Of a stretch of 64,000 bases of DNA, positions 20,999 through 28,441 are shown one piece after another; position 1 is the first letter of the stretch, and each line of letters begins with the position of its first letter. The DNA is from Oscillospiraceae bacterium (GTDB lineage Bacteria; Bacillota; Clostridia; Oscillospirales; Oscillospiraceae), in contig SVKO01000001.1 in assembly GCA_015068455.1 (NCBI GenBank), positions 62,001-126,000 of the forward strand, given 5' to 3'. A model generated the notes under the pieces. It was not told where the DNA came from and did not search any database. It saw only the letters and a list, made by a program, of their open reading frames with translations. The position numbers and the translations under genes are program-made.

Positions 20999-22168
20999 TT
21001 ATTCCGCCGTCAGCGGGTAGGTCTCGCCGCCGAGGGTCACAGACTTGATCTCGCTCAGGTCGAGGGCGTTCGTCAGCACGCAGTTAAAAGTCCACTGCCC
21101 GGTCTGCATGGGATCGTCGAGGTGGCTGTCGGCGATGCTCCAGACCCCGGCGAGCTCCCGCTCCTGCTCGGCCAGCACAAGCTGCGTTCCGTCTTCGAGA
21201 TCCAGCGCCGCGCCCTCCAGGATGTAATGGGGGCTCCTGGGGCTGTCCGGATCGGCGGTCATCTGCTCGTAGGGGTTGATCATCATGTCGATCAGCGCGA
21301 TATAGGCATGCGCCGCGTCCGGCGCACTGTCCACACGCTCGCCGAAGACCGTCGTCTCCAGCTTCTCCCGGGCGTTATCGCCCAGCATGGCCATCGTCTC
21401 ATCATAGGTCGGCGTCTTCACCTTGACGCTGACGTAGTCCGCGTAGACCTCCACGGCCTGGATCTGCGCCTGGAACTCCGGCAGATTGGGGTGGGGCACG
21501 GTTTTGCCGATGATTGCGCGCAGGCCGGCGGATTCCGTCACCGGGATCTGCGCCATATCGTAGGCGATGCCCCGCTCCTCCTTCTCCACGCGGCGGATCA
21601 CCCGGGCGCAGACGTGATCCGCGCTCTCCGGCAGGTCCATCACCCGCAGCCGCACCAAGGTCGTGCCCGCCTCCGGATCATAGCCCGTCTCGCCGATGTT
21701 GATGCTGATGTTGGAGCGCAGGGGCTCCGATGCGCCTGCCTCGTAAACGTCCACCTCGCCGATATCCCAGAGGCCCAGCGCCTCTTTTTCGACCTCCGCG
21801 CAGTCGGGCACGCTGAGGTAGGCCACCAGGTCGCCGCCGGAGCACAGGGTGGACACCAGCTCCACTTGCCCGCCGGGGGTATAGTCGGCCACCGGCGCAT
21901 CTTCGGCCTGCGCGGCCTGTCCGGGCTCATATTCCGTATACTCCTCGATCTTTTCCGGGTCGTCGATGCCCAGGTCCGCCCGGGCCGAATCCCGCATGCT
22001 CAGGGTCACGGCCCCCGCGGTGACGGCCAGCACCGCCGCCGCGGCCGCGGCGATCAGAATGCCCCGTTTGCGGATGACGGCCTTTTCCCTTTTGTATTCA
22101 TATGCTTCCATCAAAAATTCCTCCTTCACGCCATCCATGGCGGAGAGGAGCAGCTCCTCGTGTTTCAT
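20999..22168 (-). CDS. DUF4179-type anti-sigma factor
   Basis: 389 aa. A cytoplasmic N-terminus of about 35 residues (EELLLSAMDGVKEEFLMEAYEYKREK), one membrane helix (GILIAAAAAAVLAVTAGAVTL), and a long extracytoplasmic domain. This matches DUF4179/RsiV-like membrane anti-sigma factors that sequester an ECF sigma factor until an external signal. The ATG overlaps the stop of the ECF sigma gene (ATGA). The external domain (about 330 residues) would be the sensor; the signal is unknown. Confidence 0.85.
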   Translation of the reverse strand: MKHEELLLSAMDGVKEEFLMEAYEYKREKAVIRKRGILIAAAAAAVLAVTAGAVTLSMRDSARADLGIDDPEKIEEYTEYEPGQAAQAEDAPVADYTPGGQVELVSTLCSGGDLVAYLSVPDCAEVEKEALGLWDIGEVDVYEAGASEPLRSNISINIGETGYDPEAGTTLVRLRVMDLPESADHVCARVIRRVEKEERGIAYDMAQIPVTESAGLRAIIGKTVPHPNLPEFQAQIQAVEVYADYVSVKVKTPTYDETMAMLGDNAREKLETTVFGERVDSAPDAAHAYIALIDMMINPYEQMTADPDSPRSPHYILEGAALDLEDGTQLVLAEQERELAGVWSIADSHLDDPMQTGQWTFNCVLTNALDLSEIKSVTLGGETYPLTAE

Positions 22169-22722
22169 AAAACCTCCTCCTTCTCCAGATGGGTCTTCAA
22201 TTGCCTGCGAAGGCGGAACAGCATGGTGCGCACCGTGGTCTCGCGGATGCCGGTTCTTCTGGCGATCTCCGCGCCGGTGTACAGGTACCAGTAGCGCAGC
22301 ACGAACACCGCCCGTTTTTCCCGGGGCAGCGTCTGCAGAAAGCGGTTGACCGCCTCGGCGAGCTGGCGGCGGAGCATCTCATCCTCCGGCGTACCTCCGG
22401 CGCTGACGCACTCGCCCAGCTCCTCCAGCGCCAGCTGCACGCTCGTGCCGCCGCGCTTGACCGCCCGGGTCTCCCGCAGCCGCGTCAGCGACAGATTTCG
22501 GGTGATTCTGCCCAGATATGCCCGCAGATCCGCCGGCTGCGCCGGAGGTATGGCCTCCCAGGCGCGCTGCCAGGTATCGCTGACGCACTCCTCCGTATCC
22601 TCGATGGACGAGAGGATCCGATAGGCGATGGCGGCGCAGTAGGGGCCGTATTTTTCCCTCGTCAGCGCGATGGCTTGCTCGGATCTGTCAAAAAACAGCC
22701 GGATGATCTCACTGTCGTCCAA
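22165..22722 (-). CDS. ECF-family sigma-70 factor
   Basis: 185 aa. Region 2 (DDSEIIRLFFDRSEQAI, then YRILSSIEDTEECVSDTW) and region 4 (LPREKRAVFVLRYWYLYTGAEIARRTG with the HTH IRETTVRTMLFRLRRQL) are both present. It directs RNA polymerase to envelope or stress genes and is held by the coupled DUF4179 protein. I choose the TTG start at 22722 because GGAGGTGG lies upstream at proper distance; the open frame extends further, but that stretch runs over the promoter and terminator. A perfect ECF-type promoter lies just upstream (22769-22793). Confidence 0.88.
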   Translation of the reverse strand: MDDSEIIRLFFDRSEQAIALTREKYGPYCAAIAYRILSSIEDTEECVSDTWQRAWEAIPPAQPADLRAYLGRITRNLSLTRLRETRAVKRGGTSVQLALEELGECVSAGGTPEDEMLRRQLAEAVNRFLQTLPREKRAVFVLRYWYLYTGAEIARRTGIRETTVRTMLFRLRRQLKTHLEKEEVL

Positions 22723-22768
22723 GCGTCCACCTCCGTTCCTCTGTTTGAAAAGGCCTTTCATCTGAAAA

Positions 22769-22793
22769 GACGCGGTTTTTTGAACAACGTTTC
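22769..22793 (-). promoter_or_regulatory. ECF-type promoter, probably autoregulated
   Basis: On the minus strand GAAAC (22793-22789), 16-base spacer, CGTC (22772-22769). This is the classic ECF (sigma-W/M/V-like) architecture, about 45 bases before the sigma gene start. Confidence 0.8.
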
Positions 22794-22807
22794 GCCTTTT
22801 CGTAAAA

Positions 22808-22838
22808 AATCCGCCTCTGCCGTGGGCAGAGGCGGATT
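22808..22838 (-). terminator. Terminator of the NhaC-type antiporter gene
   Basis: 14-bp perfect stem (22808-22821 and 22825-22838) with a GTG loop and a T-run on the minus strand. Confidence 0.9.
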
Positions 22839-22851
22839 TCATAAAACCGGA

Positions 22852-24489
22852 TTATTCTTTGTCGAGCTGCTCCAGCTTCGAGTTCTGGATCAGCTTCAGC
22901 AGGAACAGCGTGCCGATGGTCAGCACCGCGCCGATGGGCAGCACCACCCAGGCATTGGGCAGGAAGCCGGCAATGATGAAGCACACGAAGCTCAGCGCCG
23001 CCACGGTCAGCGCATAGGGCAGCTGGGTGGCCACATGGTCCACATGGTTGCACTGGGCGCCGGCGGAGGACATGATGGTGGTATCGGAAATGGGCGAGCA
23101 GTGGTCGCCGCAGACGGCGCCGGCCAGGCAGGCGGACACGCCCACGAACAGCAGGGGGCTCGTCTCGGGGAAGATATTGGTGACGATGGGGATCAGGATG
23201 CCGAATGTGCCCCAGGAGGTGCCGGTGGCAAAGCTCAGGGCGCAGGCAACCAGGAAGATGACGGCGGGCAGGAAGGCGAACAGGCCGGCGGCGGCTTGCT
23301 CCATGACGCCAGCCACGAAGTACTTGGCGCCCAGCAGGCCGGTCATGTTCTTCAGGCTGGTGGCGAGGGTCAGGATCAGGATCGGCGGCACCATGGCGAT
23401 GAAGCCCTGGGGCACGCACTGCATGGCTTCCTTGAAGCTCAGCACGCGGCGCAGGAGCATATAGGCCACGATGATGATCAGGGCGATGATGCCGCCCCAG
23501 GGCAGGCCGACGTAGGCGTCGGTGTTGCCGAAGGCGCCGATGAAGTCGCCGGCGTAGTCGCCGCCGAAGAAGCCGCCGACATAGAGCAGGCCGAGCACGC
23601 AGGTGACGATGAGGATGACCACCGGCAGCACCAGGTCGATCACGCGGCCGCGGTCGGTGAGGGGTTTTTCGTCATTGCTGGCGATGTCCTCGGTGTTGCC
23701 GACGATATCGCCGCTCTGAGCTCTGATCTCGAAGCCGGCCATCTTGCCGTAGTCGAAGCCCATGATGGAGATGGTGATGATAAACACGAAGGTGAGCAGG
23801 GAGTAGAAGTTGAAGGGGATGGCCTTGACGAAGAGCTGCAGGCCGGAATAGGTCTCGCTCTCCACGCAGCCGGAGACCGCCGCCGCCCAGGAGGAGATCG
23901 GCGCGATCATGCACACCGGCGCGGCGGTGGCGTCGATGAGATAGGCCAGCTTCACGCGGGAGATCTTCTTCTCATCGGTCAGCGGACGCATGACCGAGCC
24001 CACGGTCAGGCAGTTGAAATAGTCGTCGATGAAGATCAGCACGCCCAGCAGGAAGGTGGCCAGGGCGGCACCGACCTTGGTGCGGATGTGGGCGGAGGCC
24101 CAGCGGCCGAAGGCCTGGGAGCCGCCGGCCCGGTTGACCAGGGCGACGATGATGCCCAGGATGACCAGGAAGACGAAGATGCCGGCGCTGTCGGCAACGG
24201 AGGCGATGAGGCCGTCGTTCACCACGGCGTCCACGGTGCCGGCGAACGAGAAGTTGCTGGCCATCAGGCCGCCCAGAACGACGCCGACAAACAGGGAGGA
24301 ATAGACCTCCTTGGTGATGAGGGCCAGGGCGATGGCCACGATGGGCGGGATCAGGGCCCAGAAGGTGCTGAACATGCGGCTGGGCGAATCCTCGGATACC
24401 GGATTGTTCGCCGTTGCGAACGCGCCGGCGATGACCACCGCCAGGATGACCACCGCAGCGACCAGGGTCAGGATGGATTTGCGTTTCAT
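22852..24489 (-). CDS. NhaC-type antiporter, predicted lysine transporter
   Basis: 545 aa with about 12 membrane helices, internally repeated. Motifs such as FATGTSWGTFGILIPIV and CGDHCSPISDTTIMSSAGA are the conserved core of the NhaC/arsenite-like Na+/H+ antiporter superfamily. It carries a large loop with SSWAAAVSGCVES. On sequence alone it would be called a Na+/H+ antiporter; but the 5' leader is a lysine riboswitch (24560-24718) with an attenuator, and NhaC-type genes under L-box control are held to be lysine transporters (LysW-type prediction). The ATG at 24489 follows TAGGAGAG. Confidence 0.88.
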   Translation of the reverse strand: MKRKSILTLVAAVVILAVVIAGAFATANNPVSEDSPSRMFSTFWALIPPIVAIALALITKEVYSSLFVGVVLGGLMASNFSFAGTVDAVVNDGLIASVADSAGIFVFLVILGIIVALVNRAGGSQAFGRWASAHIRTKVGAALATFLLGVLIFIDDYFNCLTVGSVMRPLTDEKKISRVKLAYLIDATAAPVCMIAPISSWAAAVSGCVESETYSGLQLFVKAIPFNFYSLLTFVFIITISIMGFDYGKMAGFEIRAQSGDIVGNTEDIASNDEKPLTDRGRVIDLVLPVVILIVTCVLGLLYVGGFFGGDYAGDFIGAFGNTDAYVGLPWGGIIALIIIVAYMLLRRVLSFKEAMQCVPQGFIAMVPPILILTLATSLKNMTGLLGAKYFVAGVMEQAAAGLFAFLPAVIFLVACALSFATGTSWGTFGILIPIVTNIFPETSPLLFVGVSACLAGAVCGDHCSPISDTTIMSSAGAQCNHVDHVATQLPYALTVAALSFVCFIIAGFLPNAWVVLPIGAVLTIGTLFLLKLIQNSKLEQLDKE

Positions 24490-24504
24490 TTGCTTTTCTC
24501 TCCT

Positions 24505-24718
24505 AAAAAAATTTGAGTCATGACAGCATCATGACTCAATACATCACATGTATCAGATCATGACAGCTCTCCACTTTCGTGACAGTCTGCCGGATCTTCT
24601 CCGGCAGCCCGGCGCTGGCGCCTCGGGCACGGCGCCGGCACCTCGGCGAACTCCCCTTTCTGCGTCCGGTCGCCCGACCGAAAAAGGCGCATACTGATGT
24701 CATTCGCTCCTCTATCAT
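24505..24718 (-). promoter_or_regulatory. Lysine riboswitch (L-box) with intrinsic attenuator
   Basis: Reading the minus strand: helix P1 pairs ATGATAG (24718-24712) with CTGTCAT (24566-24560). Conserved L-box segments follow in order: AGAGGAGCGA, CATCAGTATG, GAAAGGGGAG then TTCGCCGAGG, GGGCTGCCGG, and GACTGTCA. Downstream, TTGAGTCATGA pairs with TCATGACTCAA (24513-24539), followed by seven T (24511-24505): an intrinsic terminator just before the ribosome site. The 3' strand of P1 contains TCATGA, which can pair with TCATGA of the terminator arm, giving an antiterminator when lysine is absent. So lysine should switch the antiporter gene off. Confidence 0.92.
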
Positions 24719-24731
24719 AACTATGTAATTC

Positions 24732-24759
24732 ATTATAGTATAAAAGTGCCGTTTGTCAA
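24732..24759 (-). promoter_or_regulatory. Consensus promoter of the lysine riboswitch transcript
   Basis: Minus strand TTGACA (24759-24754), 16-base spacer, TATAAT (24737-24732). Transcription would start near 24725, just before the riboswitch P1 helix. Confidence 0.9.
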
Positions 24760-24861
24760 CAGATGTCTGTCAATTATTCCGGCAGAATCAACAAAAAATC
24801 CGCAAAAACGGTCGAACTGCGGCGGCCCGTGACGCATATGATGAGAACGGGAGGGAATCGC

Positions 24862-25116
24862 ATGAAGGACTGCTATTTTTCTTTTCGCTCCGTCACGGCC
24901 GCCCAGCGGGGTCTGCGGGCGCTGACGGCCGCCGGGATCCCGGCGGCGATCAGCCGCACCCCCGGCGCCCTGGCCAAAAAGGGCTGCGGCTACTGTCTGC
25001 GCGTCAGCGAAGCCCGGGCGCCGGAGACGGCGCATATACTGCGCGGCACGGGCGTACAGGGCGTCTGGCGGCGGACCGGCGGCGGGTTCGAGGAGGCGGC
25101 GTATGATCTATTTTGA
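24862..25116 (+). CDS. DUF3343 protein (putative Se/S carrier-like)
   Basis: 84 aa. YFSFRSVTAAQRGLRAL, PAAISRTPGALAKKGCGYCLRV follows the DUF3343 pattern: a small ferredoxin-like fold with a conserved Cys pair (GCGYC), proposed to carry sulfur or selenium. It overlaps the cysteine desulfurase-like gene by 14 bases. That pairing is known in anaerobes with selenium traits. GGGAGGG lies upstream of the ATG at 24862; an earlier in-frame start lies in the divergent promoter region. Confidence 0.8.
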   Translation: MKDCYFSFRSVTAAQRGLRALTAAGIPAAISRTPGALAKKGCGYCLRVSEARAPETAHILRGTGVQGVWRRTGGGFEEAAYDLF

Positions 25117-26227
25117 CGCCGCGGCCACCACCTGGCAGAAGCCGCCCCAGGTGCGCCGGGCCGTCGCCCGGGCCATGGAGCGCCTCGCCAGCCCCGGCCG
25201 GGGCGGCTACCGGCAGGCGCGGGAGGCGGAGCAAATGATGTACGATTGCCGTCTGGCGGCTGCCGCGCTCTTCGGCTGCGAGCCGGAGCAGGCCGTCTTC
25301 ACCATGAACGCCACCCACGGCCTGAACATCGCCGTAAAAAGCCTGGTCCGCCGGGGCGGCCGGGTGGTGATCTCCGGCTTTGAGCACAATGCCGTGGTCC
25401 GGCCTCTGCATGCCGCCGGCGCCCGGACCGTCGCGGCGGGCAGAGCCCTGTTCGATCCCGACGCTGTTCTGGACGCCTTCGACCGGGCGATCACCCGGGA
25501 CACGGACGCCGTGATCTGCACCCATGTATCGAATGTTTTCGGCTTCATCCTGCCGGTGGAGGAAATTGCCGGGCTGTGCCGGGCGCGGGGCGTTCCCCTG
25601 ATCGTCGACGCCTCCCAATCGGCGGGGATCCTGCCGGTTTCCCTGCGCGGTCTGGGCGCGCGGTTCATCGCCATGCCGGGGCACAAGGGCCTGTACGGCC
25701 CCCAGGGCACGGGGCTGCTGCTGTGCGCCGAGCCGGGCGAACCCCTGCTCTCCGGCGGCACGGGCACCCAGTCCCGCCTGGCGGAAATGCCCGGGGAGCT
25801 CCCCGAACGCCACGAGGCGGGCACGCCCAACGTCTGCGGCATCGCCGGTCTGCGGGCGGGACTGGACTTCCTGCACACCTGCGAGCCCGGCGAACTGGCC
25901 GCCCACGAGCGCGCCCTCTGCCGCCACGTGATCCGGCTGCTGCAGCCGGAGAAAGCGGTCACCTGCTTTTCCGGGCCGCCGGCATGCCAGAGCGGCGTGC
26001 TCTCGCTGCGCATCCGCGGGCTCGACGGCGAGGAGGCGGCGGAACTGCTGGCCAACAGCGGCGTCGCCGTGCGCGCCGGACTGCACTGCGCCCCCCTGGC
26101 CCACGAGAGCGCCGGGACCCTGGACGGCGGCACGGTGCGCCTGAGCTTCAGCGCCTTCAACAGCCGCCGGGAAACGGAAATTTTTGCCGAAACACTGTCC
26201 GGCCTGCTCCGTATGAACGGCCGGTGA
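25103..26227 (+). CDS. Cysteine desulfurase family aminotransferase (class V)
   Basis: 374 aa. A PLP enzyme: YFDAAATTWQKPPQV at the start, NATHGLNIAV, DASQSAGILPV, and the PLP lysine in MPGHKGLYGPQGTG. A catalytic Cys candidate lies in RAGLHCAPLAHES near the C-terminus. The whole matches the cysteine desulfurase-like family (EGID type) associated with DUF3343 proteins and, in many genomes, with selenium use (selD). It should release S or Se from cysteine or selenocysteine onto a carrier; DUF3343, encoded just upstream, is a natural acceptor. Confidence 0.85.
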   Translation: MIYFDAAATTWQKPPQVRRAVARAMERLASPGRGGYRQAREAEQMMYDCRLAAAALFGCEPEQAVFTMNATHGLNIAVKSLVRRGGRVVISGFEHNAVVRPLHAAGARTVAAGRALFDPDAVLDAFDRAITRDTDAVICTHVSNVFGFILPVEEIAGLCRARGVPLIVDASQSAGILPVSLRGLGARFIAMPGHKGLYGPQGTGLLLCAEPGEPLLSGGTGTQSRLAEMPGELPERHEAGTPNVCGIAGLRAGLDFLHTCEPGELAAHERALCRHVIRLLQPEKAVTCFSGPPACQSGVLSLRIRGLDGEEAAELLANSGVAVRAGLHCAPLAHESAGTLDGGTVRLSFSAFNSRRETEIFAETLSGLLRMNGR

Positions 26228-26276: not shown

Positions 26277-26343
26277 TATATAGATATAAGTATAGTTGGG
26301 ATTATATCCTTTTTTAGGAAAACGGATTTACGGGGAGAGTTTG

Positions 26344-27219
26344 ATGAAGCTACTGCTGAACACACTGCGGGAATATGCGAGCCTGATCCCGCAGCCGGGA
26401 ATCATGGATATCATCGACATTCTGGTCGTTGCCTACCTGTTCTACCGGATCTTTATGCTGATCCGGCAGACGGCGGCGGCGCGGATCGCGCGCAGCATCC
26501 TGCTGATCCTGCTGGTGGCCGGCCTGACCCGGCTGCTGCAGATGCACGCGCTGCACTATGTGCTGAGCTATGTGCTGGAGTTGGGCGCGTTCGCCCTGAT
26601 CATCATTTTCCAGCCGGAGCTTCGGCGCGGGCTCGAACGCATCGGCGGCAAGCGGATCCTCGGCATGTTCTCCCCCCAGCATCAGGCCACGGAGAACGAA
26701 TACGTCATCGGCGAGGTCGTGCGCGCCTGTGAACAGATGTCGCGCAAGCGCGTGGGCGCACTGATCGTCTTTGAGCGCACCATCCCGCTGGAGCAGTACT
26801 TCGCCTCCGGCACCGTTGTGGACGCCAAGGTCTCCGAGCAGCTCATCTGCAACATCTTCTTCCCCAAGGCCGCGCTGCACGACGGTGCGATGATCATCCG
26901 CAATGAGCGGGTGGCCGCCGCAGGCTGCGTCCTGCCTCTGACAGAGAATCCCCGGGTGAGCACCGACCTCGGCACCCGTCATCGCGCCGGCATCGGCATG
27001 AGCGAAGTCTCCGACGCCCTGGTGATCATCGTCTCCGAGGAGACGGGCACCATCTCCGTGGCGGACCAGGGCATGCTCAAGCGCCACCTGGCGCCACAAA
27101 CGCTGAAAAAGCTCCTGACCCAGGAGCTGCTCAACCAGGACAGCACGGGCGGCCCGGGTATCGTGGGCTGGCTGCGCAAGCGCCTGACATCGGAGGGACG
27201 AAACAATGAAGAAAAATAA
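26344..27219 (+). CDS. cdaA: Diadenylate cyclase CdaA
   Basis: 291 aa. Three N-terminal membrane helices (about 20-95), then a DAC domain with the catalytic DGA (180-182, in ALHDGAMII) and RHR (212-214, in GTRHRAGIG) motifs. It makes c-di-AMP from two ATP; c-di-AMP governs potassium and osmolyte uptake and cell-wall homeostasis in Firmicutes. The ATG follows GGGAGAG. It overlaps cdaR by 14 bases, the usual cdaA-cdaR arrangement; glmM is not next to them here. Confidence 0.96.
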   Translation: MKLLLNTLREYASLIPQPGIMDIIDILVVAYLFYRIFMLIRQTAAARIARSILLILLVAGLTRLLQMHALHYVLSYVLELGAFALIIIFQPELRRGLERIGGKRILGMFSPQHQATENEYVIGEVVRACEQMSRKRVGALIVFERTIPLEQYFASGTVVDAKVSEQLICNIFFPKAALHDGAMIIRNERVAAAGCVLPLTENPRVSTDLGTRHRAGIGMSEVSDALVIIVSEETGTISVADQGMLKRHLAPQTLKKLLTQELLNQDSTGGPGIVGWLRKRLTSEGRNNEEK

Positions 27220-28441
27220 GCTTCCCATGTTCCTTCTGGCCCTCGGCGCCGCCATCCTGGTGTGGCTGTACGACGTCACCGTGGTCAACCCCAACGATAC
27301 CAGCACCATTTCCGGCATCCCCGTTTCCTTTGCCAATGAAGACGTCATCCGCTCCCAGGACCTGATGGTCACCGGAGGAAGCAGCGACACGGTGTCCCTG
27401 CGCATCAGCGGCCGGCGTTCCGAGCTGAAAAAACTCTCCAAGAACAACATCGAGGTCACCGTGGACCTGAGCCAGATCACCGAAGAAGGCAACCACGACC
27501 TGCCCTATACGGTCCAGTTCCCCGCCAACGTGTCCTCCGGCGAGCTGTCCATCGACAACCGCTCCCCCGCGACCGTCTCGGTGACGGTGGAGCACTATAT
27601 CCGCCGCACCATCGAGGTCCGCACCGTCTTTGAGGGCGACGTCTCCCCCGGCGCCGAGGGCGAATCCCTGGTCATCGACACCGACACCATGAAGGTCACT
27701 CCCGGCGAGGTGACAGTCACCGGCCCGGCGGAGCAGGTGGAGGCCATCGACTGCGCCATGATCACCATCGACCGCTCGGGCATTTCCGAAACCACCGTGG
27801 CCGAATACGACTACGAGCTCCTGGACGCATCCGGCGATCCCGTCAACCGCGACGAGCTGGTGGCGGATGTGGAAAAGTTCACCATCAACATCCCGGTGCT
27901 CAAATTCAAGGAGGTCCCCCTGACCGTCCGCACCGTCGACGGCGGCGGCGCCACCGCGGCCAACGTCAGCTATTCCCTTTCCGCCGACTCCATCAAGATT
28001 TCCGGCGATCCGTCTCTGGTGGACCGCATCCATCAGATCGAACTCGGCACCCTGGATTTCGCCTCGGTCATCGGCCCCACCACCCGCACCTATTCCGTCA
28101 GCCTGCCCGAGGGCGTCAACAACGCCTCCGGCGTCACGGAGGTGGAGCTCACGGCGGAGGTCTCCGGGCTGAACGTCATCAACCTGACCATCGACGACTT
28201 CACCCTCATCAACGTGCCCGAAAACCTGACCGCCGAATCCCTGGGCGAGAGCGTCCAGCTCACCCTGCGGGGCACCCCCGCCGCCCTGTCGAACCTCAAG
28301 CCCGAGGATGTAGCGGTGACGGTGGACCTGTCCAGCTTCACCCAACCGGGCACCTTCATCGTTCCCGTCACGGTCAAGCTCCCCGACGGTCTGCAGGTGG
28401 GCCCCATCGGTTCGAACACCCTCACCGTCACCCTTTCCTGA
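27206..28441 (+). CDS. cdaR: CdaR (YbbR-like) regulator of CdaA
   Basis: 411 aa. One N-terminal membrane helix (LPMFLLALGAAILVWLY) followed by about four extracytoplasmic YbbR repeats, recognisable by recurring strands such as PVSFANEDVIRSQ and VTGPAEQVEAID. CdaR binds and modulates CdaA at the membrane. Length and repeat number are typical. Its start lies within the end of cdaA, so the two are co-translated. Confidence 0.93.
   Translation: MKKNKLPMFLLALGAAILVWLYDVTVVNPNDTSTISGIPVSFANEDVIRSQDLMVTGGSSDTVSLRISGRRSELKKLSKNNIEVTVDLSQITEEGNHDLPYTVQFPANVSSGELSIDNRSPATVSVTVEHYIRRTIEVRTVFEGDVSPGAEGESLVIDTDTMKVTPGEVTVTGPAEQVEAIDCAMITIDRSGISETTVAEYDYELLDASGDPVNRDELVADVEKFTINIPVLKFKEVPLTVRTVDGGGATAANVSYSLSADSIKISGDPSLVDRIHQIELGTLDFASVIGPTTRTYSVSLPEGVNNASGVTEVELTAEVSGLNVINLTIDDFTLINVPENLTAESLGESVQLTLRGTPAALSNLKPEDVAVTVDLSSFTQPGTFIVPVTVKLPDGLQVGPIGSNTLTVTLS

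Follow-up and report, generated by a model that had tools for sequence, protein, structure and literature searches.

A lysine riboswitch with a predicted terminating OFF mechanism precedes the gene of a probable LysW-type lysine importer in an Oscillospiraceae bacterium

What does an NhaC-type carrier, labelled a Na+/H+ antiporter by annotation pipelines, do when its gene lies behind an RNA leader with the features of a lysine sensor? The question arises at a minus-strand locus in the window, i.e., the whole stretch of 64,000 nucleotides analysed here from an Oscillospiraceae bacterium, where a promoter, an aptamer, a terminator and an NhaC-type transporter gene follow one another in that order. 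The host genome (2.3 Mb in 12 contigs) is 99.7% complete. Judged by the transporter sequence, its closest named relatives belong to the Oscillospiraceae and to other Clostridia, mostly of animal-gut origin. Aptamer, promoter, terminator, antiterminator, the exclusivity of the alternative folds and the conservation of the riboswitch–transporter linkage were all computed here. We consider it very likely that the leader is a lysine-binding OFF riboswitch which terminates transcription ahead of a single gene, and that this gene encodes a LysW-type lysine importer, likely cation-coupled.

The aptamer and its expression platform

The lysine riboswitch aptamer (L-box; 24556..24722, minus strand) matches the Rfam model RF00168 over its full length (model positions 1-182) at 92.1 bits (E 5.4e-23; cmscan, Rfam), three times the gathering score of 30. 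The first-pass annotation had described a complete L-box order of conserved segments and named a covariance search with this model as the check; the match is significant and spans the whole model, and the letters of the five-helix junction are all found (AGAGG-GC, AGTA, GAAAGGG, GCCGA, GGGC, GACTG and GTGGAG-GCT). One core letter departs from the consensus, A to G (GCCGAGG for GCCGAAG). The P1 helix had likewise been placed exactly, with its 5' strand (24712..24718, minus strand) and its 3' strand (24560..24566, minus strand) pairing as 24718-24712 with 24566-24560; all 7 pairs are standard, one of them G-U. The leader is unusually stable for its composition (z = -4.8; 0/200 shuffles equally stable), and the Rfam scan of the window returned, apart from the lysine riboswitch, a single further match, a tRNA. 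From this aptamer we infer that the RNA binds lysine.

A promoter and an antiterminator, neither of which the first-pass annotation mentioned, can be added to the leader. The aptamer starts just downstream of a sigma-70-type promoter (TTGACA-16-TATAAT; 24732..24759, minus strand) with 12/12 matches, 1 such site being found where shuffles predict 0.4; the expected start of transcription is near 24725. On the other side of the aptamer lies an intrinsic terminator hairpin of 12 pairs (24513..24539, minus strand; -14.9 kcal/mol on its own), followed by ATTTTTTT, the stem 24539-24513 standing directly before seven T (ATTTTTTTAG); the 501-base region holds 2 terminator-like sites, with shuffles predicting 0.4. 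The antiterminator hairpin (24529..24563, minus strand) pairs 24563-24548 with 24544-24529, with 15/16 pairs formed, one C-A mismatch and a GTG loop (-14.2 kcal/mol on its own). It occupies both the P1 3' strand, which overlaps its 5' half, and the terminator 5' arm, and so excludes P1 as well as the terminator. The self-complementary TCATGA that had been noted in the P1 3' strand (24563-24558) and in the terminator 5' arm (24534-24529) is indeed present in both, and it occurs also in the terminator's other arm (24523-24518). These two mutually exclusive pairs of structures, P1/antiterminator and antiterminator/terminator, together with the U tract, are what characterizes a terminating OFF riboswitch. 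The ribosome binding site AGGAG lies 3' of the U tract and outside the terminator stem, which makes transcription the simplest level of control.

At low lysine, the newly transcribed P1 3' strand, together with the stretch following it, would pair with the terminator 5' arm, and the antiterminator thus formed would let polymerase read into the NhaC-type gene. Abundant lysine would stabilise the aptamer and P1 and block the antiterminator, whereupon the terminator would form and transcription would end ahead of the gene. In modelled partial transcripts, P1 has a probability of 0.99-1.0 (0.999) until the terminator 5' arm appears, at which point the antiterminator reaches 0.98-1.0 and P1 drops to ~0. 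For the complete leader, the fold constrained to contain P1 (with the terminator) lies 0.9 kcal/mol above the one with the antiterminator, a gap of ~1 kcal/mol that is within model error; with the alternatives this close, bound lysine could shift the outcome towards termination. Lysine-dependent premature termination, as originally proposed, is thus the best-supported reading, given that the aptamer is complete, that antiterminator and terminator exclude each other, and that relatives share the design, and it would be expected to operate in vivo.

Conservation, the transporter and its neighbours

Among named relatives (57-68% identity), a lysine riboswitch lies upstream of the transporter gene in 41/80, and within the same bacterial family it precedes 26 of the 29 transporter relatives, one of these being weak. 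The other 39/80 named relatives have no detected riboswitch, a few being interrupted by contig ends. The linkage between riboswitch and transporter is strong, though not universal. Its design recurs as well: a promoter site matching at 11 or 12 of the 12 positions is found in 45/66 riboswitch leaders of relatives and a terminator-like hairpin 3' of the aptamer in 48/68 leaders, both counts standing without a shuffle control. Across 45 distinct leaders, pairing of the P1 3' strand is stronger with the terminator arm of the same leader than with a swapped one (mean -7.3 vs -5.6 kcal/mol; 0/5000 permutations as good as the real arrangement, shared ancestry still being contained in this statistic), as expected if an antiterminator is maintained. 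On the protein tree, riboswitch presence is scattered (21 changes vs 33 in shuffles), so that the element has been repeatedly gained or lost inside one transporter group.

Some features of these relatives are recorded in their own right. No lysine riboswitch was detected in a starred clade of 10 Lachnospiraceae transporters (including L102, L103, L040 and L109). A lysine theme was sought upstream of the riboswitch-less relatives and rejected, the genes with a family match there being unrelated (EamA, histidine kinase, polysaccharide genes, PTA and others). Copies of the Gut-1 RNA (RF01706) lie ~2.5 kb or less from the riboswitch–transporter unit, beside a tRNA gene, at L086/L127, L078 and L090.

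The transporter gene (22852..24489, minus strand; 545 aa) encodes a COG1757-like member of PF03553, the NhaC antiporter superfamily (Pfam E 1.3e-46), which misses the equivalog cut-off of TIGR00931 for the classical NhaC Na+/H+ antiporter (34.4 vs 370 bits) and matches the ArcD profile weakly. Its structure model is all-helical and confident (pLDDT 86); a LysW-type protein would be expected to have some 11 transmembrane segments. A sequence search against solved structures gave no match; by fold, the top match among them is MleN (an integrative model), followed by carriers of the ion-transporter superfamily, e.g., TRAP SiaQM and INDY. The modelled fold is compatible with a cation-coupled carrier of an organic solute and leaves the substrate unfixed. 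The other NhaC-type proteins of the host genome, L114 (35% identical) and L115, are both without a riboswitch.

Directly downstream on the same strand is an ECF sigma factor gene (22165-22842, minus strand), and next after it a gene for an unassigned 389-aa protein (20999-22168, minus strand) that may be the anti-sigma partner. The end of the transporter gene carries a GC-rich inverted repeat and a T run (CCGCCTCTGCC...GGCAGAGGCGG ATTTTTT) overlapping the called start of the sigma gene, which may thus have been called too far upstream. Divergent from the riboswitch promoter (24763-26227, plus strand) are genes for a putative Se/S carrier protein (PF11823), for which a start near 24862 is likelier than one at 24763, and for a class V aminotransferase of the cysteine desulfurase/selenocysteine lyase kind; a selenium- or sulfur-handling pair is possible. 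Beyond these (26296-28441, plus strand) come a CdaA diadenylate cyclase gene and one that probably encodes a YbbR-type regulator, which make up a standard pair.

Lysine supply and competing readings

The host genome carries a second lysine riboswitch, before dapA (identified by sequence), and it also contains lysA; the cell thus very probably makes lysine and places both synthesis and the transporter under one signal. The host genome has no LysP-type permease (PF00324), and no protein in it reaches the cut-off for PF13520, hence no YvsH-type permease above cut-off. These are the families that we take to hold the other secondary transporters expected under lysine riboswitches; further uptake routes, e.g., an ABC system, may exist in the host. 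The proposal that the NhaC-type protein is a lysine transporter is supported by the conserved linkage and by this lack of other riboswitch-associated permeases above cut-off. An OFF switch fits supply, not export, and the genome has no match to lysine 2,3-aminomutase or the Orn/Lys/Arg decarboxylase family (PF01276) and no LysO-type exporter (PF03956), which together favour a supply role. A part in lysine fermentation was dropped for want of the aminomutase, and export was set aside on the OFF logic and the missing LysO-type protein. The transporter thus probably imports lysine, and as a LysW-type cation-coupled importer it would supplement the cell's own diaminopimelate pathway, with the same switch at dapA.

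Three other readings were weighed against lysine import under lysine control. The protein might carry a related solute, e.g., a lysine precursor or a different basic amino acid, or exchange lysine for another solute, lysine then being no more than the end product that is sensed; exchangers occur in the family, the best fold match is MleN, the ArcD profile matches weakly, and substrate and direction are not set by sequence alone. Against this stand the class-wide use of lysine riboswitches on lysine synthesis and transport genes (PMC5584792) and an OFF logic that argues against net export, and we regard it as unlikely. Narrower still, and a shade less likely, is a lysine exchanger, e.g., lysine in and another basic solute out, in place of a simple importer; were it true, the transport mode would be new for the LysW group.

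A genuine Na+/H+ antiporter that serves pH homeostasis and is produced at low lysine, while lysine decarboxylation consumes protons at high lysine, would accord with the NhaC family name and with published speculation for C. difficile and others. Its take-over step lacks a candidate of the PF01276 family in a 99.7% complete genome, and amino-acid-specific regulation does occur among NhaC relatives, e.g., the Tyr T-box transporters (PMC2494555); we find this reading distinctly unlikely, the missing aminomutase, decarboxylase and LysO having weakened it. That the aptamer is a vestige, or recognises another ligand, and leaves the gene uncontrolled, would draw on the one core letter off consensus, but GCCGAGG recurs in 8/68 compared leaders (this one counted), and a full-length 92-bit match, a perfect promoter and a near-perfect antiterminator make this reading highly improbable.

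Comparison with known systems

The L-box of B. subtilis lysC acts by termination. Together with other members of RF00168 it shares aptamer and OFF logic with the present switch; it controls an aspartokinase, whereas transport is controlled here. In Firmicutes, NhaC transporters under Tyr T-boxes offer a parallel in which amino-acid specificity was predicted from the RNA leader (PMC2494555), the leader there being a tRNA-sensing T-box and the amino acid tyrosine.

Closer is CD1655 of C. difficile, where a lysine riboswitch precedes an NhaC-like gene in a genome with four lysine riboswitches (PMC11477304). A 2024 review terms the function of this type unknown, with lysine transport or pH homeostasis as the options (PMC11477304). 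The arrangement is the same and the genome likewise clostridial, with four lysine riboswitches there against two here; the pH-homeostasis option needs a decarboxylase, for which the present genome holds no PF01276 candidate. Our literature search found no transport experiment on any NhaC-type lysine transporter. Having two lysine riboswitches but lacking PF01276 and, above cut-off, any permease of the LysP or YvsH type, this is a clean genome for deciding between lysine transport and pH homeostasis in riboswitch-linked NhaC proteins.

Closest of all is LysW, an NhaC-superfamily protein under lysine riboswitches proposed by Rodionov et al. 2003, as relayed in PMC5584792, and catalogued by Mukherjee et al. 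2017 in Firmicutes and proteobacteria (PMC5584792). There too a lysine riboswitch stands straight before one NhaC-type (COG1757) gene for a proposed lysine transporter, and the present locus shows the same PF03553 membership and conserved upstream riboswitch (26/29, 41/80); the likeness to the gammaproteobacterial LysW is drawn at the level of arrangement and family. The host lineage differs (Oscillospiraceae-like gut bacteria), and nothing else of substance does. The observation at this locus is right, and both the arrangement, described many times over, and the proposed lysine transporter go back to 2003; beyond a secure functional annotation for a gene that pipelines label a Na+/H+ antiporter, and beyond the test genome, the regulation is that of the textbook, with LysW as its direct counterpart.
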